Source: a virus. From it: a DNA stretch of 21,809 nt. The translations under genes were made by a program, and so were the position numbers. Shown here piece by piece: positions 3,436-20,513 of the stretch (its first letter is position 1; each line of letters starts with the position of its first letter). The DNA lies in the IMG/VR virus record IMGVR_UViG_3300025138_000431, positions 1 to 21,809 of that record. The stretch is one strand, 5' to 3'. The notes under the pieces were generated by a model that was not told the origin of the DNA, ran no database searches, and worked only from the letters and a program-made list of their open reading frames with translations.

Positions 3436-4908
3436 ATGGCAAGTACAATACAATTAAAAACAGGAACAGGGTCAGCAGTACCCGCTAATTTAACTCAAGG
3501 AGAATTAGCCATTAACGTAGACAATGGTTTAGTTTACTATGGCTCAGGTTCTACTAATACAACAAAAAAATTAGAAACTTTTACAAACATAACAGCCTCA
3601 GGACATATAAGTGCAAGTGGCCACGTGGAAGCTAATAGAATATACCCACAAGGAATTAGTGGACCTTTTATATCAACTAGAAATGGCCAAATTAACTCAT
3701 CAACTGGATTTACAGGAATAAACATAACAGCCTCAAGTAATATAAGTGCAAGTGGAGATGTAATGGCAAAAGATTATTTTGATAATGGTACAAATATAAA
3801 CACAATTTATTCTCCAATAGAGGGGAGTGAACAGATAACATCAGTAGGAACAATTTCAGAAGGAACTTGGAATGGAGTAACAATAGCTAGTGCTAATTTA
3901 GATGCAGATACAGCTCATTTAACTACAGACCAAACATTTAGTGGTAAAAAAACCTTTAGTGCAGCTATAACAGCCTCAGGTAATATAAGTGCAAGTGGAA
4001 CGATCACAGCTAATAAAATAGAATCAGATCAATTATTTAGTCATGTGGGAGATGCAAACACAGGAATACAATTATCTTCAGATTCAGTTCAGATTGAAGG
4101 TAATGACGTAATAATAGCTAATTTTACTACTAGTAGAATAGAATTAAACAGTCCAATAACAGCCTCAGGTAATATAAGTGCAAGTGGAACAGTAACAGCA
4201 GCAGGAGTTCGTCTACCAGGAGCAGGAATAATATCTTTTGATAATTCATTAGATGGTACAGACCAGTTTATTAAAGGTGGTGACCATTATATAACCATTG
4301 AAGGTGATGACATAATAAAATTAAAAGCAGACACTCAAGTTCAATTTCAAGATAATTCAGGAATTGTTTTTGCAGCTATAAACCCTAATGCAGGTCATAT
4401 AACATCCTCAGGTAATATAAGTGCAAGTGGAACCATATATGGACGACAATGGGAACAAATAGAAACAAACCTTACGGCCAATATAGGAAGTTTATCAAGT
4501 GGTCATGATGGTGATGATTTTATATTTTTACCATGGACAGATACCGATACAGAAAATGCAGGATCAAGTAATAAATTTGTAAATAGATCAGCAGTAGCAC
4601 CAGGAAAACCTATAAAAACATCAATGAGAGCTACATCTAATACTTTAGGAGATACTGCATATACAATGAGTTTATGGGAAAATAAAACAGATCAAGGCAA
4701 TAATAACCTTGTATTAGTTACAGAAGCTTGTGGAGATTCAACAGGTACAAATAGAGAAGTTGTAACTTTTGATTGGACAAATCCTTGTTCAGGATCAAAT
4801 GTAGATATAACATATGGAAGTAAAATGTGGATGGGAATTAAAACAACTAATGGAAATGCAACTTATGCAATTACACATCTTTGGGAATGGGATTATGGTT
4901 CATTATAA
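3436..4908 (+). CDS. Tail fibre protein 2 with Mtd-like N-terminus and shaft repeats
   Basis: The 490-aa product starts with IQLKTGTGSAVPANLTQGEL followed by AINVDNGLVYYGSGS. This is the pattern of the small beta N-terminal domain found in Mtd-type and many other phage fibres (x-L-x-x-G-x-x-x-x-P-x-x-L-x-x-G-E-L-A-I). The shaft holds five ITASGNISASG-type units starting at residues 52, 97, 178, 241 and 322. Residues 150-165 carry a THLTTDQTFSGKKTF unit common in fibres. From about residue 340 a non-repetitive head of roughly 150 residues (WEQIETNLTANIG to HLWEWDYGSL) is Trp- and Asp-rich and looks like a globular receptor-binding domain. A TATTTATA word ends only four bases before the ATG. 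The start is kept because the N-terminal module begins right there. Confidence 0.82.
   Translation: MASTIQLKTGTGSAVPANLTQGELAINVDNGLVYYGSGSTNTTKKLETFTNITASGHISASGHVEANRIYPQGISGPFISTRNGQINSSTGFTGINITASSNISASGDVMAKDYFDNGTNINTIYSPIEGSEQITSVGTISEGTWNGVTIASANLDADTAHLTTDQTFSGKKTFSAAITASGNISASGTITANKIESDQLFSHVGDANTGIQLSSDSVQIEGNDVIIANFTTSRIELNSPITASGNISASGTVTAAGVRLPGAGIISFDNSLDGTDQFIKGGDHYITIEGDDIIKLKADTQVQFQDNSGIVFAAINPNAGHITSSGNISASGTIYGRQWEQIETNLTANIGSLSSGHDGDDFIFLPWTDTDTENAGSSNKFVNRSAVAPGKPIKTSMRATSNTLGDTAYTMSLWENKTDQGNNNLVLVTEACGDSTGTNREVVTFDWTNPCSGSNVDITYGSKMWMGIKTTNGNATYAITHLWEWDYGSL
3589..4430 (+). repeat. Shaft repeat elements in fibre gene 2 (five 32-base copies)
   Basis: Copies lie at 3589-3620, 3724-3755, 3967-3998, 4156-4187 and 4399-4430, all in the same reading frame. 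The copies at 3967 and 4156 are identical over the 32 bases; the others differ by a few bases. A further copy with ISSSG instead of ISASG is at 5164-5195 in fibre gene 3. Confidence 0.85.
3617..3755 (+). repeat. 139-bp duplicated fibre module, copy 2
   Basis: Partner of 1147-1285, in the same reading frame of fibre gene 2. It is flanked on both sides by the shaft element, which could serve as the crossover site. Confidence 0.8.
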
Positions 4909-4917
4909 TGATTAATT

Positions 4918-5574
4918 ATGGCTATTAAAATTAAAAGTAGAGATCCTAAAACAACAGATTTTAAATCTGATGATATTGTAATTAATATTAAAGAAGGCAC
5001 TTTATTTTATAAAACTAATAAAGAATTATTTAAAATACAAGGAGATAAAGTAAGTACTCCTTTAGTAGAATCAAATCTAACTGCATTAAAACAAGTTGGA
5101 GACGTACTTACGGAAATAAGTGCAAGTAGTTTTACAACAGATGGTTTTGTATCAGCTTTACACATAACATCCTCAGGTAATATAAGTTCTTCAGGAACTC
5201 TTACTACAAAAGATTTAATAACAGACTTTGCTAATATAGAAAAACTCTATTTACCAGGACAAGGAGTTGGCACAATGACAGTTGGTTCTACATTTGCTGT
5301 AGGAGAAACAGTACAAGTAGTAGGAAATGTAGATGTAAAAGGCGGTATAAGTGTAAGTGGTTCTATTATACCTGAAGGAAGTGGTTCTTTTGATTTAGGT
5401 AGTGCACAACATCCTTGGAAAGATCTTCATATATTTTCTCAATCAATACATTTTTATGATAATGATGGAGAAATTGGAAAAGTATCATATATAAAAAATG
5501 AAGGCCTAAGAATATCAGATGAAACAGATTCAATTGAAGGGATAGTTTCAACCATAAATGGCGGGTCTTTTTAA
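4918..5574 (+). CDS. Tail fibre protein 3 (short), LGS-W-K-DL motif
   Basis: The 218-aa product opens with a charged N-terminal module (MAIKIKSRDPKTTDFKSDDI), in which VINIKEGTLFYKTNKELFKI echoes the ELAINVDNGLVYY strand pair of the preceding fibre. One shaft unit, ITSSGNISSSG, lies at residues 83-93. Further on, GSFDLGSAQHPWKDLHIFSQ followed by SIHFYDNDGEIGKV is a motif I know from many phage fibres (flat-sheet repeats with LG-x-W-x-D-L-Y). The protein ends with TINGGSF, as does the 109-aa protein upstream; at DNA level the last 24 bases of the two genes differ at only three positions. Probably a short fibre, or a fibre connector working with the two larger fibres. Confidence 0.76.
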   Translation: MAIKIKSRDPKTTDFKSDDIVINIKEGTLFYKTNKELFKIQGDKVSTPLVESNLTALKQVGDVLTEISASSFTTDGFVSALHITSSGNISSSGTLTTKDLITDFANIEKLYLPGQGVGTMTVGSTFAVGETVQVVGNVDVKGGISVSGSIIPEGSGSFDLGSAQHPWKDLHIFSQSIHFYDNDGEIGKVSYIKNEGLRISDETDSIEGIVSTINGGSF

Positions 5575-6037: not shown

Positions 6038-8968
6038 ATGGCAGAACAAATAATTTCACCGGGTGTATTTACAAGAGAAAATGACCTTTCATTTTTACCA
6101 CAAGGAGTTGGCGCAATTGGCGCTGCAATTATTGGACCAACAGTAAAAGGACCTGCATTTGTACCAACAGTAATAAGAAGCTTTGCAGATTATGAAAGAA
6201 AATTTGGCTCTTTAAGTAAAGATACTTTTGTACCTCAAACAGTAAGAGAATATCTAAAAAATGCAGGATCAGTAACTGTATGTAGAGTATTAGCCGGAGG
6301 TGGTTATACTTTTACAAATGGAACTAATGAAATGGTAGCAGTAGTAGCTTCTGGCTCTAGTGCTGATAATGTTTTAGTAGGTGTAATTTATCCTTCTAAA
6401 AACACATCAACACCAGATTTATCTCAAACAGTAGTAACTAAAAATGTAGGAACAGGTAATCCTGATTTAGATGAAAAGTTTAATTTAATATTAAGTGGTT
6501 CAAGTGTTACTAAAACTGCATTTTCAGCTTCATTAAATCCTAATAATAGAAATTACTTATTTAAGCAATTAGGAGATGATCCAAATAATAGTAAAACATC
6601 AAATGTAGCCTATTCAGGAACTCCTGGTTACACTTACATAAATTTTAAAACACTTCAATCAAGTTTAGCTAGTACAGTTAAAGAATCAGCAAATGTACAA
6701 TTTGCTGCACAATTAACAGAAAGTATTAAAAGTGTAGCAAATTCAACAAATAGATTTGTATTTACTACAGCAGATGGTTCAAATTTTAATCTTGAATTTG
6801 GAGGAACTAAAGCGAATATATTAAATTATACAGCTTCATCTTCACCTACAGGATTAGCAGTAACAATGAGTCTTGTAGGACAAACTGCAGTTACTCCTAC
6901 AGCAGTTGCATACTCCACACTTTTAAGAGATAAAATGAATAATTTAGCAACATTAAATGCTCATTTTTCTGCATCCTTATCAGGTTCAGGAGGAGTCACA
7001 ATAGATTTTTTAGATGCAGGAGCAGCAACAGATGCCTTAAGTGGATTTCATGCAGTATCAGCATCTGTTAATATAATAACTCAAGGAACAGATGTCACAG
7101 GATATTCAATAGCTTCAGGTAAAGAAGCATTATTTTTAACACAAAATGCTGATATGACATTTAATGGTAATATAGGACAAAATGAAGGATATTCATATGC
7201 TTCTACTCCTTACATTACTTCACAATTTTTAGATGTAAATAAAACAACAAAACAATTATTTAAATTCCATACAATAGCTCACGATAAAGAATGTAATACA
7301 GATTATAAAGTATCAATTGCTAATTTAAGAGAACCAGGTGATATAGATGGAGAAGAACAATATTCAACATTTTCTGTTATTATAAGAGCATATAGAGACA
7401 CAGATAAAAATCCAATTATTTTAGAACAATTTAATAATTGTAATTTAGACCCAGACAGTCCAAATTATATTTCTAGAGTAATTGGTGATAGATATCCACA
7501 ATATAATGATACTTTAGGTAAAGTTGAATTATTAGGAAATTATAGTAATATATCAAATTATTGTAGAGTAGAAGTAGCATCTCATGTAGAAGCAAAATCA
7601 ATTTCTCCAAAAATTTCTCCAAAAGGATTCTCATCAATTCAAAACCCAATCAGAACATCATCGTTTGCTACTAACTTTACTGTTCCTTCAGCATCTTATG
7701 AAGGAATACAACAAACAGGAACAGATGGTACTTTTGGTACTAAAGGATATTTAGGATTTAAATTTAAAGAAAAAGAAGCGGATAATGTAAACTTCCTTAA
7801 ACCATTACCTGTGGGACACGAATCAAACATATCAGGTGATTTTAATGTTGAAAATTATTTAGGACATGCAAGTTCAAGTTTATTCTCAGGTTCATTAAGT
7901 GCTTCAATTAGTATAACAGGAGTTTCAGGACCAACAGCTAATCAACTTAAATTTACAGTTCCTTTCCAAGGAGGAGAAGATGGTATAGCACCTTACACAG
8001 TTAAATTTACAGGTGCTGAAGATCCTTCAACACCAGCAGGAACATATTCTACAGGAGATAATTTATATGGTTTTGATTTAAATACTACAAATGCAGCAGG
8101 ATTTAAAGGGTATAAAAAAGCAATAGACATATTATCAAATCAAGACGAATATGATATTAATATGTTAGCTATGCCTGGTGTTTTACATTCAATTCACCCA
8201 TTAGTTACAAATGCAGGTATTGATATGTGTGAAGAAAGAGGTGATACATTTTTTGTAATGGATTTAACTACAGTAGATTCATCAGTAAACACCGCTATAG
8301 ACAAAGCAAATGCATTAGACACCAACTACGCTGCAACTTATTATCCATGGGTTAAAGTGCTTGATTCTTCCATAAATAAACCAATATTAGTACCACCATC
8401 AGTAATTGTACCAGGAGCTATAGCAGCTTCAGATAGAATCGGAGCTGAATGGTTTGCACCAGCAGGTTTAAATAGAGGTATTTTAGGAAATGTATTAGAA
8501 GCTAAAATCAGATTAAATCAAGGGGAAAGAGACAGATTATATAATGGGAAAATTAACCCAATTGCAACATTCCCACAAACAGGAGTTTGTATTTGGGGTC
8601 AGAAAACATTACAAGAAAGACCAACAGCTTTAGATAGAATTAATGTAAGAAGATTATTAATTACACTTAAAAAATTCATTGCAAGTTCTTCAAGATATTT
8701 AATATTTGAACAAAATACAATTCAAACAAGAGATAGATTCTTAGGAATAGTAAATCCTTACTTAGAATCAGTACAACAACAACAAGGATTATATGCGTTT
8801 AGAGTAACAATGGATGAAAGTAACAACACAGCAGATGTTATTGATAGAAATCAATTAGTAGGTGCAATTTATTTACAACCAACTAAAACAGCTGAATTTA
8901 TAGTACTTGACTTTAATGTATTACCAACAGGAGCAACATTTGATGGTGGTGGTGGTGGAGGTTACTAA
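6038..8968 (+). CDS. Contractile tail sheath protein, gp18-like (enlarged)
   Basis: The 976-aa product has the T4-type sheath N-terminus, SPGVFTRENDLSFLPQGVGA followed by IGPTVKGPAFVPTVIRSFAD and YERKFGSL. The C-terminal core from about residue 700 is also typical: NMLAMPGV; WFAPAGLNRGILGNVLEAKI; LYNGKINPIATFPQTGVCIW; RPTALDRINVRRLLITLKKF; FLGIVNPYLESVQQQQGLYA; and a final strand LVGAIYLQPTKTAEFIVLDF. Sheath subunits form the contracting outer tube that drives the inner tube into the host. T4 gp18 is 659 aa; here the middle (about residues 100-690) is larger and includes Ser/Ala/Thr-rich beta segments that probably decorate the outer surface. The last seven residues are GGGGGGY. A hairpin and a TATTTATA word lie in the 132-base gap upstream; the tail tube gene follows. 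Confidence 0.93.
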   Translation: MAEQIISPGVFTRENDLSFLPQGVGAIGAAIIGPTVKGPAFVPTVIRSFADYERKFGSLSKDTFVPQTVREYLKNAGSVTVCRVLAGGGYTFTNGTNEMVAVVASGSSADNVLVGVIYPSKNTSTPDLSQTVVTKNVGTGNPDLDEKFNLILSGSSVTKTAFSASLNPNNRNYLFKQLGDDPNNSKTSNVAYSGTPGYTYINFKTLQSSLASTVKESANVQFAAQLTESIKSVANSTNRFVFTTADGSNFNLEFGGTKANILNYTASSSPTGLAVTMSLVGQTAVTPTAVAYSTLLRDKMNNLATLNAHFSASLSGSGGVTIDFLDAGAATDALSGFHAVSASVNIITQGTDVTGYSIASGKEALFLTQNADMTFNGNIGQNEGYSYASTPYITSQFLDVNKTTKQLFKFHTIAHDKECNTDYKVSIANLREPGDIDGEEQYSTFSVIIRAYRDTDKNPIILEQFNNCNLDPDSPNYISRVIGDRYPQYNDTLGKVELLGNYSNISNYCRVEVASHVEAKSISPKISPKGFSSIQNPIRTSSFATNFTVPSASYEGIQQTGTDGTFGTKGYLGFKFKEKEADNVNFLKPLPVGHESNISGDFNVENYLGHASSSLFSGSLSASISITGVSGPTANQLKFTVPFQGGEDGIAPYTVKFTGAEDPSTPAGTYSTGDNLYGFDLNTTNAAGFKGYKKAIDILSNQDEYDINMLAMPGVLHSIHPLVTNAGIDMCEERGDTFFVMDLTTVDSSVNTAIDKANALDTNYAATYYPWVKVLDSSINKPILVPPSVIVPGAIAASDRIGAEWFAPAGLNRGILGNVLEAKIRLNQGERDRLYNGKINPIATFPQTGVCIWGQKTLQERPTALDRINVRRLLITLKKFIASSSRYLIFEQNTIQTRDRFLGIVNPYLESVQQQQGLYAFRVTMDESNNTADVIDRNQLVGAIYLQPTKTAEFIVLDFNVLPTGATFDGGGGGGY

Positions 8969-9016: not shown

Positions 9017-9502
9017 ATGGCAATATTAGATTCAACACAAATGATGTTCACAGCATTCGAACCAAAGTTACAAAATAGGTTCCTAATGGTAATTGATGGC
9101 ATCCCTTCATACCTTATTAAAAAAATATCAAGACCAAGTATTTCTTTTGGAGAAGTAGTTCTTGACCACATTAACGTGAAAAGAAAAATTAAAGGTAAAG
9201 CAAATTGGGACAACATTACATGTGACTTATATGATCCAGTAACACCATCAGGTGCTCAAGCAGTAATGGAATGGGTTAGATTATCTCATGAATCAGTAAC
9301 AGGTAGAGATGGTTATTCAGATTTCTATAAAAAGAACATTCACATTAAAACATTAGGACCAGTAGGTGATGTTGTTGAAGAATGGATTTTAAAAGGAGCT
9401 TATTGTCAAAATGCAAATTTTGGTGATATGGATTGGACGTCAGACACACCAGCAAATATTAGTATGACTATAGTAATGGATTACGCAGTTTTAAATTACT
9501 AA
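9017..9502 (+). CDS. Tail tube protein, gp19-like
   Basis: The 161-aa product is about the size of T4 gp19 (163 aa) and directly follows the sheath gene, as in T4. Recognisable family features are FEPKLQNRFLMVIDGIPSYL near residue 13, the segment ISRPSISFGEVVLDHINVKR, WDNITCDLYDPVTPSGAQAV followed by MEWVRLSHESVTGRDGY, and the closing strands WILKGAYCQNANFGDMDW and MTIVMDYAVL. Hexameric rings of this protein stack into the inner tube through which DNA passes. A TATTTATA word lies 24 bases before the start, so tube and following genes may have their own promoter in addition to read-through from the sheath gene. Confidence 0.93.
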   Translation: MAILDSTQMMFTAFEPKLQNRFLMVIDGIPSYLIKKISRPSISFGEVVLDHINVKRKIKGKANWDNITCDLYDPVTPSGAQAVMEWVRLSHESVTGRDGYSDFYKKNIHIKTLGPVGDVVEEWILKGAYCQNANFGDMDWTSDTPANISMTIVMDYAVLNY

Positions 9503-9519: not shown

Positions 9520-9858
9520 ATGAAATTATCACAATTAAAAAGAATAATTAAAGAATCTGTTCTAGAATTAAAAAATGAACAAGTATTACCAGGAGGATCA
9601 TGTAATTTACCAGCAGGATCAATAGTAAATGGACCTTACCCAAATCAATTTGATCCAAATGTATGGGTTGACAAATGGGAAACTTTTAAAGACAATAATA
9701 ATTTAGGATGTCAATGGGTAAAAGGTAAATATTTAGGATGGAACGATAAATTAAGTGTCTTACATTCTAAACCATTTCCAAAATGTAATAAAAGATGGCA
9801 AGGTATGTTACAATTTAAAGTAAACCATGTTCAAACAATGCATGCTCAATGTATTTAA
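9520..9858 (+). CDS. Small unknown protein, paralogue of the 2124-2510 gene
   Basis: The 112-aa product starts with an amphipathic basic helix, MKLSQLKRIIKESVLELKNE. A linker (LPGGSCNLPAGSIVNGPYPN) leads to a Trp/Cys domain with WVDKWETF near residue 50, LGCQW near 66, GWNDKLSVL, and NKRWQGMLQFKV with a Cys as penultimate residue. The order WxxxWxTF, GC, W/N-K, RWQ and terminal Cys parallels the protein at 2124-2510. The four or so Cys could form disulphides outside the cell or bind metal, which cannot be decided here. It lies 17 bases after the tail tube gene and ends 20 bases before a strong terminator, so it is the last gene of the sheath-tube unit. Function not recognised. Confidence 0.62.
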   Translation: MKLSQLKRIIKESVLELKNEQVLPGGSCNLPAGSIVNGPYPNQFDPNVWVDKWETFKDNNNLGCQWVKGKYLGWNDKLSVLHSKPFPKCNKRWQGMLQFKVNHVQTMHAQCI

Positions 9859-9953: not shown

Positions 9954-10703
9954 ATGGAAGAAAAAACAAACACATTTCCCTCTGAAGAAGTTACATTACC
10001 CTCAAAAGGTTTACTTTATCCAGAAGGATCCCCTTTAAGGAAAGGAGTCATAAAAATGAAATATATGACTGCTAAAGAAGAAGACATTTTAACAAACCCA
10101 AATTTAATTGAAAATGGAACAGTAATTGATAAATTACTCCAATCATTAATTGTAACCCCTATCGATTATAACACATTATTAACAGGAGATAAAAATGCTA
10201 TTTTAGTTGCAGCTCGTGTTTTAGGGTATGGTGCTGATTATACATTTACATATAGAGGTGAAGAAATCGATATAGATTTAACTACTATTAAAGATAAAAT
10301 ATTAGATGAATCTTTAGTTGTAGAAGGCAAAAATGAATTTCATTTTACTTTACCAACATCAAAAGTAAATGTAACTATTAAATTTTTAACACATGCAGAT
10401 GAAAGAAAAATTGATAATGAATTAAAAGGTCTTAAAAAACTTAATAAAAATATAACATCTGATGTAACTACAAGATTGAAATATATAATTACGTCTGTAG
10501 ATGGAGATTATGAACAAAAAACTATTAGAGAATTTGTAGATAATCAATTTTTAGCTAGAGACGCAAGAGAATTAAGAAACTATATTGAAAAAATCCAACC
10601 AAGTGTCGACTTATCTTATGATTATGAAGACCAGAGAGGTAATATCACAAAGATTGATATCCCTGTTGGTATTAAGTTTTTTTGGCCTGACGCCTCAATA
10701 TAG
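9954..10703 (+). CDS. gp26-like baseplate/tail assembly chaperone protein (T4_baseplate family)
   Basis: The 249-aa protein carries the pattern of the family that includes T4 gp26: EVTLPSKGLLYPEGSPLRKG, then MKYMTAKEEDILTNPNLIEN followed by GTVIDKLLQSLIV near residues 35-65, then ILVAARVLGYGADY. A C-terminal helical part (LTHADERKIDNELKGLKKL, FLARDARELRNYI) ends in IPVGIKFFWPDASI. T4 gp26 is somewhat shorter (208 aa). The family takes part in baseplate hub assembly. Its place immediately before the tape measure gene is where other phages keep the tail assembly chaperone (lambda G and GT). The last part overlaps, in the +1 frame, a second reading frame that continues to 10944. The gene has its own upstream terminator and the palindromic element, so it opens a new transcription unit. 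Confidence 0.8.
   Translation: MEEKTNTFPSEEVTLPSKGLLYPEGSPLRKGVIKMKYMTAKEEDILTNPNLIENGTVIDKLLQSLIVTPIDYNTLLTGDKNAILVAARVLGYGADYTFTYRGEEIDIDLTTIKDKILDESLVVEGKNEFHFTLPTSKVNVTIKFLTHADERKIDNELKGLKKLNKNITSDVTTRLKYIITSVDGDYEQKTIREFVDNQFLARDARELRNYIEKIQPSVDLSYDYEDQRGNITKIDIPVGIKFFWPDASI
10677..10683 (+). other. Candidate programmed +1 ribosomal frameshift site (seven T)
   Basis: The zero frame reads AAG TTT TTT TGG CCT GAC GCC TCA ATA TAG, stopping at 10703. The downstream coding frame is +1 relative to it and reads AGT TTT TTT GGC CTG ACG CCT CAA TAT AGG. On the run of seven T, a tRNA-Phe on TTT (10680-10682) could move one base forward and still pair perfectly (10681-10683), continuing at GGC 10684. 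A canonical -1 heptamer is not present. A slip nearer the stop codon, or a -2 shift, would also reach the right frame. The site is inferred from geometry. Confidence 0.4.
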
Positions 10704-10944
10704 GAATACCCTATTTACTCAAGTGCATGACCTAGTGTACCATGGTGGTGGTGGATTTATACACTCTGAGGTCTATAATATGCCTACTTGGATGAGAAAA
10801 TTTCACATTTTAAGAATTAATAAATATGTGAAAGAAAAAAATGAAGAAACAGAAAAAGCCCAAAAACAAGCTAACCCAAATTCTAAAAAATCAGTACAAG
10901 GGCCTAATATAAATCCTTCTTCAACATATAATTTTAAAAAGTAA
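10684..10944 (+). CDS. Overlapping +1-frame tail chaperone extension (probably made by frameshift)
   Basis: This frame is open from before 10585 to the stop at 10944. The ATG at 10585 would give a 119-aa product whose first 30 or so residues are only the shifted reading of the gp26-like gene and look random. The plausible protein begins around QYRNTLFTQVHDLVYHGGGG and continues FIHSEVYNMPTWMRKFHILR, followed by a charged tail (YVKEKNEETEKAQKQANPN). No ATG precedes that segment in frame, apart from the distant 10585 codon; the MP of the YNMP motif is too far in. The pattern lYHGxGGFxxxxVYxMPxWxRxFxI resembles, from memory, small ORFs found before tape measure genes in other T4-like phages. I therefore read it as the T part of a G/GT-like chaperone, joined to the upstream gene by +1 (or -2) frameshifting. 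Independent translation from GTG or CTG is the alternative. The stated start is the first codon after the proposed slip. Confidence 0.55.
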   Translation, partial: GLTPQYRNTLFTQVHDLVYHGGGGFIHSEVYNMPTWMRKFHILRINKYVKEKNEETEKAQKQANPNSKKSVQGPNINPSSTYNFKK

Positions 10945-11000: not shown

Positions 11001-13085
11001 ATGGCTAACGGAGACGAAAATAAAAAAAATCTAGAAGAACAAAAAAAGTTTAATAAAGCTAAAGAACAAGAAATTAAACACACTAAAGAGACAGGGAAAG
11101 AACTGTTATCTCAAAGGCAAGCTTTAAATGATCTTCTTAAACTCCAAAAAGAAGGAAACGAATATAAAAAAGAAACTCTAGGAATGTCTAGAGATTTAGC
11201 TAAATTTGAACAAGAAGAATTAGTTTTTAAACAAGCAGGAATTGAATTATTAAGATCAGAACAAGATTTATCTAAAGCTTTATTACAAGACACAGCCCTA
11301 AGAAAACAACTTAAACAAAAAGTAAAAGATCTTGAAAAAGCTGGTAATGTAGATCAAGCTAAAAATCTAGCTGCTCAATTAAAAACAACAAAATCTATAG
11401 GTAAAAATATTAAGAAACAAATAAAGGATAGAGCCTCAATAAATAAACACCTAGGAATGACCGACAATATAATGAGAGGTCTAGAACAAATTCCTTTCTT
11501 TAAAGAATTTATAGATGGAGAAGCTATAATTGGAAAAGCAGAAAAAGCTATTCATGGGATGGAGGATGAATCTAAAAAATCATCAGCAGGAATGAAGGCA
11601 GCCTTTGGAGAGGCATTTCAACAATTAAACGATAACTCTTCAGCTATAGGAAAAGTTCTATCTGCGTGGACTTTAACGTCTATACTAAAAGATGCAATAG
11701 AACTTAGCACACAAGTAACACAGGTACAAAAATCATTAAATCTTTCAGATAAAGCATCAAGACAATTAAATAATAATTTTTTAATGATGTCTCATTCTAC
11801 AAGAACTACAGGTATTGCTGTTAGTGATATAAGAAATACCTTTATGTCTCTTAATGAACAATTAGGAATATCTACAACAGCAATAAGAGATGATATAGTT
11901 CAAGAAATGGCTATATTATCTAAATATACAGGTTTATCAGCTGAATCCCAAGCAAGATTTGCACAAGACGCAATATTATCAGGTAAAAAAGCACATGAAA
12001 TAACTACAGAAGCAAGAGCAACAGTAGAAGCACAAGCAAAACAATTTGGATTAGGAGTAGATGTAAATAAAATATTAGATGAAGCAGGACAAATAACAGG
12101 AGTAATGGCTGCCAACTTTGGTTTTAGTATTACAAAAATGGCTAAGTTAGTAACACAATCTAAACAATTAGGTATTTCTCTTGAACAAACAAAAAGCATC
12201 CAAGCAGGCATGCTTGATTTTGCATCATCTATTGAAAATGAATTAGCAGCAGAATTATTTACGGGTAAACAACTTAATTTAGAAAAAGCAAGATTATATG
12301 CTTTAACAAATGATTATACAAATTTACAAAAAGAAATAGTAAAACAATTTCCTAGTATAATAGAATTTGAAAAAATGAATTATTTTGCAAAAGAAAGAAC
12401 AGCAGCAGCATTAGGGTTAACTGCAGATGGGATGGCTGACATTTTAAGAGATGGCAAAACAAATAAAGAATTAGCTAAAGAAGCAGAAGCTGCAGGAGAA
12501 AAAGAGCTACAGAAGATGTATGAAAAACGAGGAGCAGCAGAAGACTTAGCAAACGCACAACAAGTAATTACAGAATCTTTAGTAAATATGATGACACCTC
12601 TTTTACCTCTAGTAGAAGCATTTGCAAATATGCTTACATATACAGAATTAGTTGGTTTTGCAATAGGAGCAATAGTGGGGGTTAAATTTTTAGGATTAAT
12701 AAATTCGGTTCTGTTGTTAGCAAAAGCTTGGAAAGCAACCGCAATTGCATCTGCTATAGCAAAAGCAGCAGCTAATCCTCTTACGATTCCTCTTGTAATT
12801 GGAGGAATGGCTGTAGCAGGAGCTGCGGCAGGATACGCAATATCCTCAAACACACCAAGTAAAAATGATTTATCACCTATGGACGTTGCTCAAATTCAAA
12901 GAGGAGAAGTAAAAGCACACAGTGGAGAATCTTTAATAAGAACAAACACATTAGAAGCTTTACTTAATAAAGCAGGGGGAGGAGGAAATCAACAACAAAA
13001 TATGCAACCAGTTGTATTATCAGTTAATTACAGTGGCTTTGATGCAGTTAAAGCCCCAACACATTATAACACATCAATAAGATAA
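11001..13085 (+). CDS. Tail tape measure protein
   Basis: The 694-aa product has a very long charged helical N-terminus (residues 1-150, MANGDENKKNLEEQKKFNKA and on, rich in Lys, Glu and Gln). A middle Ala/Ser/Thr-rich helical region follows (SLNEQLGISTTAIRDDIVQE, ARFAQDAILSGKKAHEI). Around residues 550-614 there is a hydrophobic stretch (LVGFAIGAIVGVKFLGLINS, PLTIPLVIGGMAVAGAAAGY) that could span a membrane. Near the C-terminus GEVKAHSGESLIRTNTLEAL resembles the HxGE motif near the end of many tape measure proteins. Such proteins set tail length and pass into the host ahead of DNA. At roughly 0.15 nm per residue the tail would be near 100 nm. The gene follows the chaperone-like pair, as expected, and has its own terminator and TATTTATA word upstream. 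Confidence 0.85.
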   Translation: MANGDENKKNLEEQKKFNKAKEQEIKHTKETGKELLSQRQALNDLLKLQKEGNEYKKETLGMSRDLAKFEQEELVFKQAGIELLRSEQDLSKALLQDTALRKQLKQKVKDLEKAGNVDQAKNLAAQLKTTKSIGKNIKKQIKDRASINKHLGMTDNIMRGLEQIPFFKEFIDGEAIIGKAEKAIHGMEDESKKSSAGMKAAFGEAFQQLNDNSSAIGKVLSAWTLTSILKDAIELSTQVTQVQKSLNLSDKASRQLNNNFLMMSHSTRTTGIAVSDIRNTFMSLNEQLGISTTAIRDDIVQEMAILSKYTGLSAESQARFAQDAILSGKKAHEITTEARATVEAQAKQFGLGVDVNKILDEAGQITGVMAANFGFSITKMAKLVTQSKQLGISLEQTKSIQAGMLDFASSIENELAAELFTGKQLNLEKARLYALTNDYTNLQKEIVKQFPSIIEFEKMNYFAKERTAAALGLTADGMADILRDGKTNKELAKEAEAAGEKELQKMYEKRGAAEDLANAQQVITESLVNMMTPLLPLVEAFANMLTYTELVGFAIGAIVGVKFLGLINSVLLLAKAWKATAIASAIAKAAANPLTIPLVIGGMAVAGAAAGYAISSNTPSKNDLSPMDVAQIQRGEVKAHSGESLIRTNTLEALLNKAGGGGNQQQNMQPVVLSVNYSGFDAVKAPTHYNTSIR

Positions 13086-16538: not shown

Positions 16539-19500
16539 ATGCCAGGAATTAATGGAATATTTGAACCTTTTAGGAAGTACGTACAAAACCAATTAAATAA
16601 AAGACAAGAAACAGTAAAAGATAGAAAAGAAGGAGAATTCTACACCTATACTACTGCTAAATCTTGTTATTTAAGAATGGTGTCAGGAGTAAATATAGCT
16701 CATAAAAATAATATTCTTGAATCAAGTGAAACTCCTAAAAAATTAGATGAAGGTTTAGCTAAACAATATATTTTAGAAGGAGGAACTCTTTATTATGATA
16801 GGCTTGGGGAGGGAGCTATGAGAGAATCTTTTACTGAAGGAAAAGAAGAATCAAAAACAAGAGGTTTTACTTATGGGGATGACCATGTAAGAGCAGACGC
16901 TGGAGATAATTTTGGTATTGTTCCTATGCCGGGTATTGTAGATGCAGAAATTAGAACAAAAACCCCAGAAGGATCTTTAAGAGAAGCTAAAATAAATTTT
17001 GAATGTCATAATAGAAGACAATTACAAGTTTTAGAAGCTTTATATATGAGACCAGGTTATTTAGTTTTACTTGAATGGGGATGGAGTCCTTACATCCATA
17101 GTAAAGATGGAATAGAAACTGACCCATCTTCAGGTATTGCTAGAAAATTTTTAGACCCTACTAAAGTTCAAGACACAACAGGTAATTTATTTAATAGATT
17201 AAATCAAGAAATCATCAAAAAGAAACAAGACACAGAAGGAAATTATGATGGTTTTATAGGAATTATTAAAAATTTCAATTATACTTCAAGAGATGATGGG
17301 GGATATAGTTGTACAACTGAACTTATAGCTCAAGGAGAAATAATGGAATCTTTAAGAAGTACAAAAAAATTCATAGAAACTGATCAATTTGAGATAGCTC
17401 CATTTGAAGGTAATAAAGAAGGTACTCCAGGAGTTTTTGGGATTGGAAAAGGATTGGGAACAGATGTAGGAAGAGAGGTAGTGGTTGTAAAAAAACAACA
17501 ACGGGAAATATTAGATAAGTTTTTATTATATTTAAAATCTATAAAAGCTGTATGGGATAAAACAGGAGATGAAGCTTATTTACAATTAAAAGGCACAGAT
17601 GGAGAAACTAGACAAAAAATAAGAGGTAATTATTATAATATAGGACAAACCCCGATGATCAATAAAATTGATGTTGATGCTATTGACTATATAGAATTAC
17701 AAGAAGTAAGTCCTAAATATGAAGAGGCTTATAGTATGGTAGATAAGTTAATAAAAGACATAGGTAAAGATACACCAGCAGCCCCAGATGAAATAACAAA
17801 TTCAACTTTAGATTTAAATGATTTTACTTGGGAGAATGGATGGTTTGAATGTTTAAAAGATGGTGAAGGCTGGCCATTAGAAGATCCTGACAGCTGGTTT
17901 GCAATACAACATGAAAGGAGAGATTGGAGAAATTGTAAAGGACCTAAAGATGGAGGAATAGATGGTGTAGATTATTTAGAAGATCCATCAAAAGGTGGAG
18001 AATATAGTGAGGGACCAACTTCTCCACGTGGAGAAGAAGCTATGCATTTTAAACAATTCAGATGGAAATATGCATGTGTTGATCATAGTGACTTGTTTGA
18101 TGGTTGTACACGTAAATCCCAAAGATTATTTAAATATGGACCAGTAAGAAAAATAATGGGGGCGAATGCCCAATTCGATAAAAATAATAAGTATAATCAA
18201 CAAGATAAAGGACTAACATCCTTTTATGATGGACTTATAGTTCAACAAATATCTAAATATATTTCTTCTGAAGAAAAAATAAATTCAGGATGGAGAAAAA
18301 ATATTTTTGTTAGGTGGGATTTAGTTTGTCAAATATTTAACCACTTATCACAAAACAAACTAATAACAGATAGTGGAGAGGAACCTATAGTAGAAATGAC
18401 ATATTTGGCTCCTAAACAACAAACTTATGATCTTAGTTCTGATGGTGAAAAAATAGACAATACTGATACAGGAACAGGGGCAAATAAAAATTCAGTAAAA
18501 GAATATATAAGATATCAACCCCCAAAATCAAGACCCACAGTACCTGGAGAAATGGTGTATAATGATAGTAAATTTGAAAGGAGTGTCCTTAAATCTATTT
18601 TGGGTGAAAGTCTTGATGAAAGTGTGTGTTTATTACCTCATCAAGAAATAGTATCCTCTTTATATAAAGGTAAGGATGTATCAATTTCAGATCCTTGGGA
18701 TCTATTAGATCTCTTGTATGATGATAATAAAAATACTATTATAGTATATCCAGAGATAAAATCATCATCTAAACCATTTACATCTTATAAAAAATGTCAT
18801 TTTAATGCAAAATCTATAGGGGGAGTATTATTTAATCTTGATTTTTTAATTACAGAATACGAAAGAATATCAATGGTAAAAAGGGAATCTGGAGGTAAAA
18901 TCATAAAATCAACCATTAATTTTAACAAATATTTTAATAATATATGGGAGGGAGTAAATGCAGCAACAGGAGGTTATTATGATTTTGGTCTCCATATAGA
19001 ACATGAAAGACCTCATGTAGGAAGAATAATAGATTTTGAATTTAGTGGAAGAACAAGAAAAGACAATTTATTTACATTTAAACCTCAATTAGATGGATCT
19101 ATTTTAAGAAATTTTAATTTTAATTCTGAAATACCTTCAGACATGTCTTCTGTAATTTCTATAGCAGCTCAAGCACCTAATGAGGCAAATGATTTAGACG
19201 CTTTATCTTTTAAAGCTTTTCATAAAGGTATATATAGTAGATTTTCTGCTACTCCTTTAACAGATGAAGAAATAAAGGATAACCAAATAGCAGCAAGAGA
19301 AGTATTACAAGAGGAAATCAATAATTATAAAAAATTACTTGTATCTTTAGGAGAATATACTACGATGTTTAATAATATGAAGTTTCATAAGATCAATACA
19401 GGAGATAAATACACACAGGGGGAATCAAAGGGGGATTATATATATAGAGATCCTATAACCTCTGATAAAGCTTTATCTTATATAGAGGATTTAGAAGAAT

Positions 19501-20513
19501 TAAGAATTTCTATAGAAAATAAATATCCTTTATATTACCCAGGGGGAGAAAAAGACCACCCTAAAGCAGGATTACCTAGAGAAAATACAACATACCATAG
19601 AAGTGCAATTATACCAATTAAATTTTCAGCACAATTAGATGGTATAGCAGGAATAACACCACTTACTTTATTTAGAGTTGATAAAAATGTTTTACCAATA
19701 GGATACCAAGATAAAAAAGAATCTATTGTTTTTATAATAAAAGAAGAAAAACAAACAATAACATCAGGACAAGATTGGGTAACTGAATTTAATGGTCAAT
19801 TAGTTTTACAAGATACTAATCCTAATTTTACGGGACAAAATTTATTAAAGGGGGAGGATACAAAATTCCATACTGATATCAGTAAGGAAATTGAATCACT
19901 ATTTGAAAATATTGGAGAAAGTATAAAAAATACTTTAGGGGCACGAGTTGAAGAAGTTGATGATTCAAAACCAGGAACTTCTTTTCAAGATCCTATAGCT
20001 ATTTCATTTGTTTCATCAGTAGGAGATGGTTTTCCTGCTAGATCAGAAAGTGGTAACTTACACACAGGAATAGACATTAGAGCTAATATAGGCACAGAAT
20101 TAGTTGCCTCTAGAGACGGAACCGTTACACTTAAAACACAATCTTGTGGTGGAGGAAATTGTAAAGGGGGATATGGTGGTTTTGGACAATATGTTATTTT
20201 AGAATTTGACGACGTAGATGAAGATTCACAAGCAGCAAAAGCATTATATGCTCATTTAAATAAATTTGCATCTGGGAAAAAAGCAGGGGATAGTTATTCA
20301 GTAACAAAAGGACAGATTATTGGATATGTAGGAGAAACTGGAAACACAACAGGACCACACTTACATTATGAAATAGGAACAGAAAATTATTTAGGAAGTG
20401 GCTATCCTTCCTCTACAGATAGAGTAGGTAGATTAACTAAAACATATACTAATTCAAATAGTAAAGTAGTTAATTATTTATTAAATGCAGAAAATTTTAC
20501 AACTTATTATTAA
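16539..20513 (+). CDS. Giant baseplate hub protein with C-terminal M23 peptidase (tail lysin)
   Basis: The 1324-aa product begins GIFEPFRKYVQNQLNKRQET and then CYLRMVSGVNI. A hub-type domain follows (VDAEIRTKTPEGSLREAKIN, FECHNRRQLQVLEALYMRPG, YLVLLEWGWSPYI), with further conserved-looking blocks such as PSDMSSVISIAAQAPNEAND. The last ~150 residues form a zinc metallopeptidase of the M23 (LytM/lysostaphin) family: H1175 and D1179 in HTGID, H1239 in YAHL, and H1274/H1276 in GPHLHYE. This is the complete set of metal and catalytic residues. An unusual Cys-Gly-rich insert, SCGGGNCKGG, sits before GQYVILEF. The fused enzyme would cut peptide cross-links in the cell wall when the tail contracts, playing the role T4 gives to the gp5 lysozyme on its gp27 hub. 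No signal peptide is seen, as expected of a virion enzyme. Confidence 0.85.
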   Translation: MPGINGIFEPFRKYVQNQLNKRQETVKDRKEGEFYTYTTAKSCYLRMVSGVNIAHKNNILESSETPKKLDEGLAKQYILEGGTLYYDRLGEGAMRESFTEGKEESKTRGFTYGDDHVRADAGDNFGIVPMPGIVDAEIRTKTPEGSLREAKINFECHNRRQLQVLEALYMRPGYLVLLEWGWSPYIHSKDGIETDPSSGIARKFLDPTKVQDTTGNLFNRLNQEIIKKKQDTEGNYDGFIGIIKNFNYTSRDDGGYSCTTELIAQGEIMESLRSTKKFIETDQFEIAPFEGNKEGTPGVFGIGKGLGTDVGREVVVVKKQQREILDKFLLYLKSIKAVWDKTGDEAYLQLKGTDGETRQKIRGNYYNIGQTPMINKIDVDAIDYIELQEVSPKYEEAYSMVDKLIKDIGKDTPAAPDEITNSTLDLNDFTWENGWFECLKDGEGWPLEDPDSWFAIQHERRDWRNCKGPKDGGIDGVDYLEDPSKGGEYSEGPTSPRGEEAMHFKQFRWKYACVDHSDLFDGCTRKSQRLFKYGPVRKIMGANAQFDKNNKYNQQDKGLTSFYDGLIVQQISKYISSEEKINSGWRKNIFVRWDLVCQIFNHLSQNKLITDSGEEPIVEMTYLAPKQQTYDLSSDGEKIDNTDTGTGANKNSVKEYIRYQPPKSRPTVPGEMVYNDSKFERSVLKSILGESLDESVCLLPHQEIVSSLYKGKDVSISDPWDLLDLLYDDNKNTIIVYPEIKSSSKPFTSYKKCHFNAKSIGGVLFNLDFLITEYERISMVKRESGGKIIKSTINFNKYFNNIWEGVNAATGGYYDFGLHIEHERPHVGRIIDFEFSGRTRKDNLFTFKPQLDGSILRNFNFNSEIPSDMSSVISIAAQAPNEANDLDALSFKAFHKGIYSRFSATPLTDEEIKDNQIAAREVLQEEINNYKKLLVSLGEYTTMFNNMKFHKINTGDKYTQGESKGDYIYRDPITSDKALSYIEDLEELRISIENKYPLYYPGGEKDHPKAGLPRENTTYHRSAIIPIKFSAQLDGIAGITPLTLFRVDKNVLPIGYQDKKESIVFIIKEEKQTITSGQDWVTEFNGQLVLQDTNPNFTGQNLLKGEDTKFHTDISKEIESLFENIGESIKNTLGARVEEVDDSKPGTSFQDPIAISFVSSVGDGFPARSESGNLHTGIDIRANIGTELVASRDGTVTLKTQSCGGGNCKGGYGGFGQYVILEFDDVDEDSQAAKALYAHLNKFASGKKAGDSYSVTKGQIIGYVGETGNTTGPHLHYEIGTENYLGSGYPSSTDRVGRLTKTYTNSNSKVVNYLLNAENFTTYY

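Follow-up and report, generated by a model that had tools for sequence, protein, structure and literature searches.

A short conserved sequence at which ribosomes very probably skip one base forward in the tail assembly chaperone gene of mostly marine T4-related phages

How a protein-like segment in the +1 frame at the end of a gp26-like tail chaperone gene comes to be translated, when it shows no credible start codon of its own, is the question raised by this locus. The window, the whole 21.8-kb stretch of viral DNA analysed, shows a T4-like tail module with the lambda-type gene order of sheath, gp19-like tube, small ORF, G/T and candidate tape measure gene (Table 1), and the syntenic gene is annotated as tape measure in the phages immuto and LIS04. 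The initial annotation had placed the end of the gp26-like gene, here named G, at 10703 and the overlapping frame just before the tape measure gene, and both placements hold: the frame-0 end of G reads GGT ATT AAG TTT TTT TGG CCT GAC GCC TCA ATA TAG, and the candidate tape measure gene begins at 11001. It had also delimited the overlap as 10585-10944; the end at 10944 stands, while 10585 is merely a mechanical TTG start and the useful part runs from 10684. The open +1 frame overlapping G spans 10576-10944. Its reading in the window is TTT TTT GGC CTG ACG CCT CAA TAT AGG and onward, open to 10944, and its protein-like part, here named T, starts at GGC 10684 (GLTPQYRNTLFTQVHDLVYHGGGGF...) and adjoins G without a gap.

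Among the other proteins of the window, the sheath protein has 976 amino acid residues and sheath profiles match it mainly from about residue 660 on. A 1324-residue protein (16539-20513), whose end resembles an M23/LytM peptidase by eye (GYGGFGQYVILEF...YAHLNKF...TGPHLHYEIG), is a possible hub lysin, and three genes (462-1811, 3436-4908 and 4918-5574) which have ITASGNISASG-like repeats in common probably encode fibre-type proteins.

Table 1. Features of the window, and the loci of the jumbo phages that carry T in the -1 frame
Feature	Position or locus	Strand	Description
Source window			21.8-kb IMG/VR virus record; T4-like tail module present
Sheath	6038-8968		Tail module of the window
gp19-like tube	9017-9502		Tail module of the window
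Small ORF	9520-9858		Between tube and G
G, gp26/PF12322-type tail (baseplate-hub) assembly chaperone	9954-10703	+	249 aa zero-frame product; phrog_150, AF2 model
G stop codon TAG	10701-10703		
Predicted GT fusion	9954-10944	+	329 aa, from a translation that omits one base within the slip site
GC-rich third positions, putative 5' stimulatory region	10629-10676	+	48 nt (16 codons) 5' of the slip site
Possible RNA hairpin	10653-10676	+	Arms 10654-10661 and 10668-10675; MFE fold; one base before the slip run
Slip site TTT TTT TGG CCT	10677-10688	+	Exact codons in 118/130 clusters; low synonymous entropy
T, +1-frame extension	10684-10944	+	86 aa, predicted to form three helices and to be translated only after the shift; PF20546/DUF6760-like
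Candidate tape measure protein	11001-13085	+	Position directly 3'; G and GT are its presumed chaperones
-1 jumbo phages	L281, L284, L286-L289, L395-L398		XacN1, RAS14, 121Q, PA5oct, RaK2, Munch, GAP32, Vibrio 2.275.O, Atu_ph07, LR756511 (uncultured huge phage)

Profile comparisons place G in the T4 gp26/gp51 family. The window protein matches phrog_150 (baseplate hub) with 1.9e-11 over residues 6-243 and gave no PF12322 match, and one relative (L157) matches PF12322 with 2.1e-9; the phrog_150/PF12322 family includes both T4 gp26 and T4 gp51. G and T were folded apart with AF2. The model of G has a pLDDT of 90.9 and its best match among 989 PDB chains is the HK97 tail assembly chaperone 2ob9, with a modest Z of 5.0 over 92 residues. 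T is predicted as three helices, with no significant structural relative for the model, and a PDB sequence search found no relative. Against PF20546/DUF6760, T scored 27.7 bits, barely above the gathering threshold (cut-off 27); a PF20546 search of four phage records gave no match, and a genome scan found one relative, located in a Winogradskyella MAG.

Protein-level (purifying) selection acts on T, and in the +1 frame only: across the relatives, codons with a single change were synonymous in 23,884 cases and non-synonymous in 12,198 when read in +1, and the same counts were 6,651/34,428 and 4,206/35,206 in the two other frames. In the first test, T was found in the +1 frame of G at all 154 loci recovered by G-protein and T-protein searches. 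The larger set of 265 protein-fetched loci, made of the first searches, more distant G queries and named phages, shows T near G in +1 at 257 loci and in -1 at eight; the eight loci not in +1 are six named huge phages, whose T follows in -1 from the same two Phe codons, and a pair of loci (L383 and L388) in which T has its own ATG. No T start codon or ribosome site is conserved across the relatives, and the +1-frame ATGs of the window (10618 and 10624) sit inside G and are absent from most relatives. The locus therefore shows the lambda-type trait of a conserved C-terminal T in another frame without its own start, and no annotation of the G regions examined joins G and T into one product.

Three relatives (L050, L131 and L169) have a +1-frame stop immediately 5' of the T-run and, as the frame-0 stop follows a few codons on, the shift is confined to the stretch from the T-run to that stop. 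In the window, it must occur in 10677-10700, T reaching back only to the T-run. These +1 stops, together with the lack of a conserved start or ribosome site across the relatives, make it very unlikely that T is an independent small gene reached by re-initiation or from an unusual start inside G, although T is an own-ATG gene in L383 and L388 and open +1 codons exist upstream in the window; such a gene would also leave the motif at the junction unexplained. The initial annotation, which saw no credible start for T, is thus borne out. Homologues with an independent T start do exist (L383 and L388), but these are exactly the ones without the full motif, and the loss of the full motif precisely where T has its own start strengthens the claim of frameshifting.

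The run of seven T (10677-10683) that had been singled out as slip-prone is present in the window, within the slip site, and conserved in the relatives, where the junction is nearly invariant and reads [C/G]-TTT-TTT-TGG-CCT. The codons TTT TTT TGG CCT are found in 118 of the 130 G clusters (90% identity, protein-fetched). Non-consensus junctions are CTT TTT TGG CCT, TTC TTT TGG CCT, TTT CTT TGG CCT, TTT TTC TGG CCT, TTT TTT TTC CCT and TTT CTA TTC CCT, and two decoupled loci show CCA. An exact scan for TTTTTTTGGCCTGA gave at least 120 places, and about 114 among the matches listed are the junction: 109 of them pass the automatic G/T test, and the junction is also present in another five, where a contig end cuts it or the stop comes slightly later. 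A homopolymer at a junction is a classic error site; nevertheless, an assembly error or a decaying gene is refuted here, because more than 100 divergent clusters, and cultured isolates as well, share the same frame relation, and T is under purifying selection. More than 100 divergent independent assemblies exclude an indel in the T-run, as do cultured isolates such as Flavobacterium phage immuto and Microcystis phage Mel-JY01.

Synonymous entropy across the 78 conserved G columns is lowest in the junction codons TTT, TTT, CCT and GAC. In 121 of 130 clusters a C or G stands directly before the run, compared with 18% elsewhere, and in AT-rich relatives the codon before the run ends in C in 80 of 80 two-fold NNY codons and in G in 18 of 19 NNR codons. 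Binomial p-values for the two TTT codons were about 4e-5 and 2e-7 with 90% clusters and 0.05 and 0.02 with 70% clusters, and the signal of the preceding base (C/G) has p = 2e-7 at 70% clusters; the clusters are related by descent, and these values overstate their independence. Given the AT-rich genomes, the enrichment of TTT TTT alone is modest. The conservation of TGGCCTGAC could be held by dual coding, with W-P-D in frame 0 and G-L-T in +1, and TTT TTT and the preceding base lie 5' of the overlap; therefore, only TTT TTT and the preceding C or G are clean nucleotide signals. GGCCTGA was considered as a cis signal and rejected: dual coding may force it, and its GA is dispensable (CCT GGC, CCT AGC and CCT AAG exist).

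CCT is found in 128 of 130 clusters, both exceptions being decoupled loci, and L279 and L393 retain it although they have TTC instead of TGG. As CCT thus persists without TGG, CCU may contribute to the slip. However, a +1 slip at CCU itself (CCU to CUN) or at another codon of the window, the T-run being kept only for its Phe-Phe amino acids, seems improbable. CCT is needed anyway for the +1-frame Leu, the C or G before the run would be left unexplained, and the frame changes at Phe codons with no CCU following in RM378, SP-15, LIS04 and GXN1: RM378 shares TTT TTT TGG without CCT and shifts +1 at UUU_UGG, and the sites of SP-15 (UUU_CAC) and GXN1 (UUU_CGU_C) are both +1.

The direction of the shift is addressed by two natural variants of the junction. 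TTC TTT TGG (L373-L387) has a run of only four T and allows no -2 re-pairing, and TTT CTT TGG, found in the cultured Flavobacterium phage immuto, has the core CUU_UGG_C, one base away from CUU_UGA_C of prfB. Both variants allow +1 re-pairing to UUU and little or no -2, which favours +1 slippage in the P site; the +1 sites seen contain a slip codon UUU or CUU with U or C as the next base. A -2 slippage as in Mu, in which the P-site tRNA-Phe would move back two bases in U7 to give FFFGLT, leads to the same frame as +1, would have perfect re-pairing in the U7 of the window and is a known mechanism in Mu (PMC5009743). It appears quite unlikely here, because TTC TTT TGG would need UUU to pair on UCU and TTT CTT TGG would need tRNA-Leu to pair on UUC, and both lineages still keep a +1-frame T.

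The same variants bear on RNA polymerase, which could slip on the seven T with the aid of a nascent hairpin, so that transcripts lacking one U would be translated normally into GT. The run adjoins a possible 5' hairpin, and in an insertion sequence of Roseiflexus, slippage during transcription is driven by a stem-loop immediately on the 5' side (PMC5009743). However, the geometry is kept at sites with only four T (TTC TTT TGG), with TTTCTTT or with TTTCTATTC, the runs in TTC TTT TGG and TTT CTT TGG are too short for ordinary polymerase slippage, the runs seldom lengthen and there is no consensus hairpin. Polymerase slippage is accordingly considered an unlikely source of the long product.

Other relatives vary the arrangement itself. 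In ten jumbo phages (Table 1), T lies in -1 and a T precedes TTT TTY in 10 of 10, which gives the standard heptamer; the joined product is not annotated in the records examined. At the junction of the window, the -1 heptamer U UUU UUN is absent owing to the C or G ahead of the run; a C or G at this position fits selection against the heptamer, and the avoidance of T there in the +1 group would be the expected outcome of selection against -1. Where T is decoupled from G (three loci only), the peptide type persists and the codons are no longer fixed. In L074, at the junction and over about 670 nt 3' of it, a GIY-YIG homing-endonuclease-like ORF is inserted exactly at the junction and splits G from T; the T of L074 has its own ATG, FFWPD is coded by TTC TTC TGG CCA GAT, and an Rfam search found no intron. 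In L388, FLWPD is coded by TTC CTT TGG CCA GAT, and in L383, FLYPD is coded by TTC TTG TAT CCT GAC; in both loci T is a separate gene that starts at an ATG of its own immediately behind the G stop.

The region upstream of the slip site differs in composition from the rest of G. In the window, GC3 is 0.38 in 10629-10676 and 0.11 in the rest of G. Across 139 AT-rich relatives, it reaches 0.42 over the 16 codons that lead up to the slip site, compared with 0.15 in the rest of G, and the same comparison in other genes gives 0.22 and 0.17; a rise in GC3 of at least 0.25 is shown by 55% of G genes and 3% of other genes. A local hairpin right before the run can form in the window and in many relatives. 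As a conserved 5' stimulator it was rejected: the mean z was -0.92 against synonymous shuffles but shrank to between -0.4 and -0.5 when column or local-codon nulls were used, no single register covaries, and no clade yields a consensus structure there. On the 3' side, the mean z for structure lies between -0.65 and +0.15, with no clear signal, and the window has no Shine-Dalgarno-like sequence just 5' of the run. In constructs, a stem-loop close to a slip site on its 5' side can reduce -1 and increase +1 frameshifting (PMC5009743), and a looser 5' stimulator is possible at this slip site.

The best reading of the locus, with a probability of about 0.8, is a lambda G/GT-type tail assembly chaperone gene run by +1 frameshifting in a fraction of ribosomes, with predicted short and long chaperone forms. 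The programmed shift at the tail chaperone proposed by the initial annotation is supported by the overlap, the T-run and the missing start, all conserved in the relatives. In this large, mostly marine group of T4-related phages, the translating ribosomes very probably move ahead by one base at a short, fixed motif. Most of them would read TTT TTT TGG CCT GAC and on to TAG, producing G. In the others, while the A site presents UGG and the second UUU is paired with peptidyl-tRNA-Phe, this P-site tRNA would re-pair one base on (UUU to UUU), and translation would continue with GGC CTG ACG to give GT. UGG is not rare (9.9 per 1000), and this was counted against the reading, which invokes a pause at the A site. 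For immuto, the predicted fusion peptide is GVSFLGLTPEYR if the +1 shift takes place at CUU and GVSFFGLTPEYR if it takes place at the first UUU. If the roles are those known from lambda, the tape measure protein would be coated by many copies of G and a few of GT, with T bringing in tail tube or hub subunits, and both G and GT would leave before the virion is completed. We infer the ribosomal nature and +1 direction of the shift, its efficiency and its lambda-like role.

Among known systems, frameshifting between G and T is described as widely conserved in long-tailed phages except T4 (PMC5009743). The initial remark that a +1 shift would be unusual agrees with the known tail chaperone shifts, which are -1 for most, -2 in Mu and likely +1 in one haloarchaeal myovirus, HSTV-2 (PMC5009743). 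As in lambda G/GT, one start serves two (predicted) products, the shift lies near the gene end, just 5' of the tape measure gene, and a short C-terminal T extension has no start of its own (PMC5009743). The -1 heptamer is not a defining trait of G/GT systems, whose members also use -2 or +1, and the locus resembles Mu and HSTV-2 in its probable shift other than -1 at the tail chaperone of a contractile-tail phage (PMC5009743). It differs from lambda in its proposed +1 shift at UUU_UGG, where lambda has a -1 shift at a slippery heptamer, and in that G is of the T4 gp26/gp51 family, with no known sequence kinship to lambda G. Mu reaches the frame by -2, whereas the TTC TTT TGG variants argue against -2 here.

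Two other +1 sites resemble the junction in their codons. The bacterial prfB (RF2) site is CUU_UGA_C, with a stop codon in the A site and an upstream Shine-Dalgarno-like stimulator. As in prfB, a P-site YUU would slip +1 to UUU, and immuto has CUU_UGG_C; unlike in prfB, the A site holds the sense codon UGG, the frame-0 stop comes several codons later and the shift is not autoregulatory. The +1 motif of influenza A PA-X is UUU_CGU_C. It is likewise an internal slip without an adjacent stop, and the core of GXN1 is identical to it (UUU_CGU_C); the differences are the bacterial ribosomes, the unrelated genes and another A-site codon in the main clade.

T4 belongs to the same family, phrog_150, but its genes 26 and 51 are separate and divergently transcribed, without a frameshift. 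Both products are hub assembly chaperones, and gp51 is essential, absent from the particle and of no established function (PMC3004832). Genes 26 and 51 (L290) are paralogous, and in the family profile gp51 is gp26 plus about 48 residues beyond the shared part; the simplest reading of this extension is that T4 encodes G (gp26) and GT (gp51) as two genes. T4 thus appears to produce the G/GT pair by way of two distinct genes. Homology of the gp51 tail with T is suggestive only: gp51 gave a weak match to the GT profile, and the phrog_150 matches to the fusions end near the T boundary. In cyanophage S-PM2, gp26 was not found in the two stretches examined.

A tentative and broader reading, to which we give somewhat less than even odds as a whole, joins these observations. 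One ancestral gp26-family chaperone gene would have carried a Phe-Phe frameshift switch, and the base before TTT TTY would help to set its direction, T giving the -1 heptamer and C or G giving +1 at UUU_UGG. The GC-rich 48-nt stretch would be a novel type of 5' element that promotes +1 slippage, and T4 would have swapped the frameshift for gene duplication, with gp26 as G and gp51 as GT.

These results correct existing gene calls, in which G and T are to be joined as one predicted product. Sites of +1 frameshifting on sense codons are described as very hard to recognise (PMC5009743), and here a 14-base string suffices to find a conserved, probable +1 site across viral metagenomes. The natural variants and the decoupled controls may serve the study of the bacterial forward shift on UUU_UGG. 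G/GT frameshifting would be extended to relatives of T4, where it had been reported absent, and a testable role for T4 gp51 follows. If the broader reading is true, the long-unassigned role of gp51 would be explained and T4 would no longer be an exception to G/GT frameshifting.
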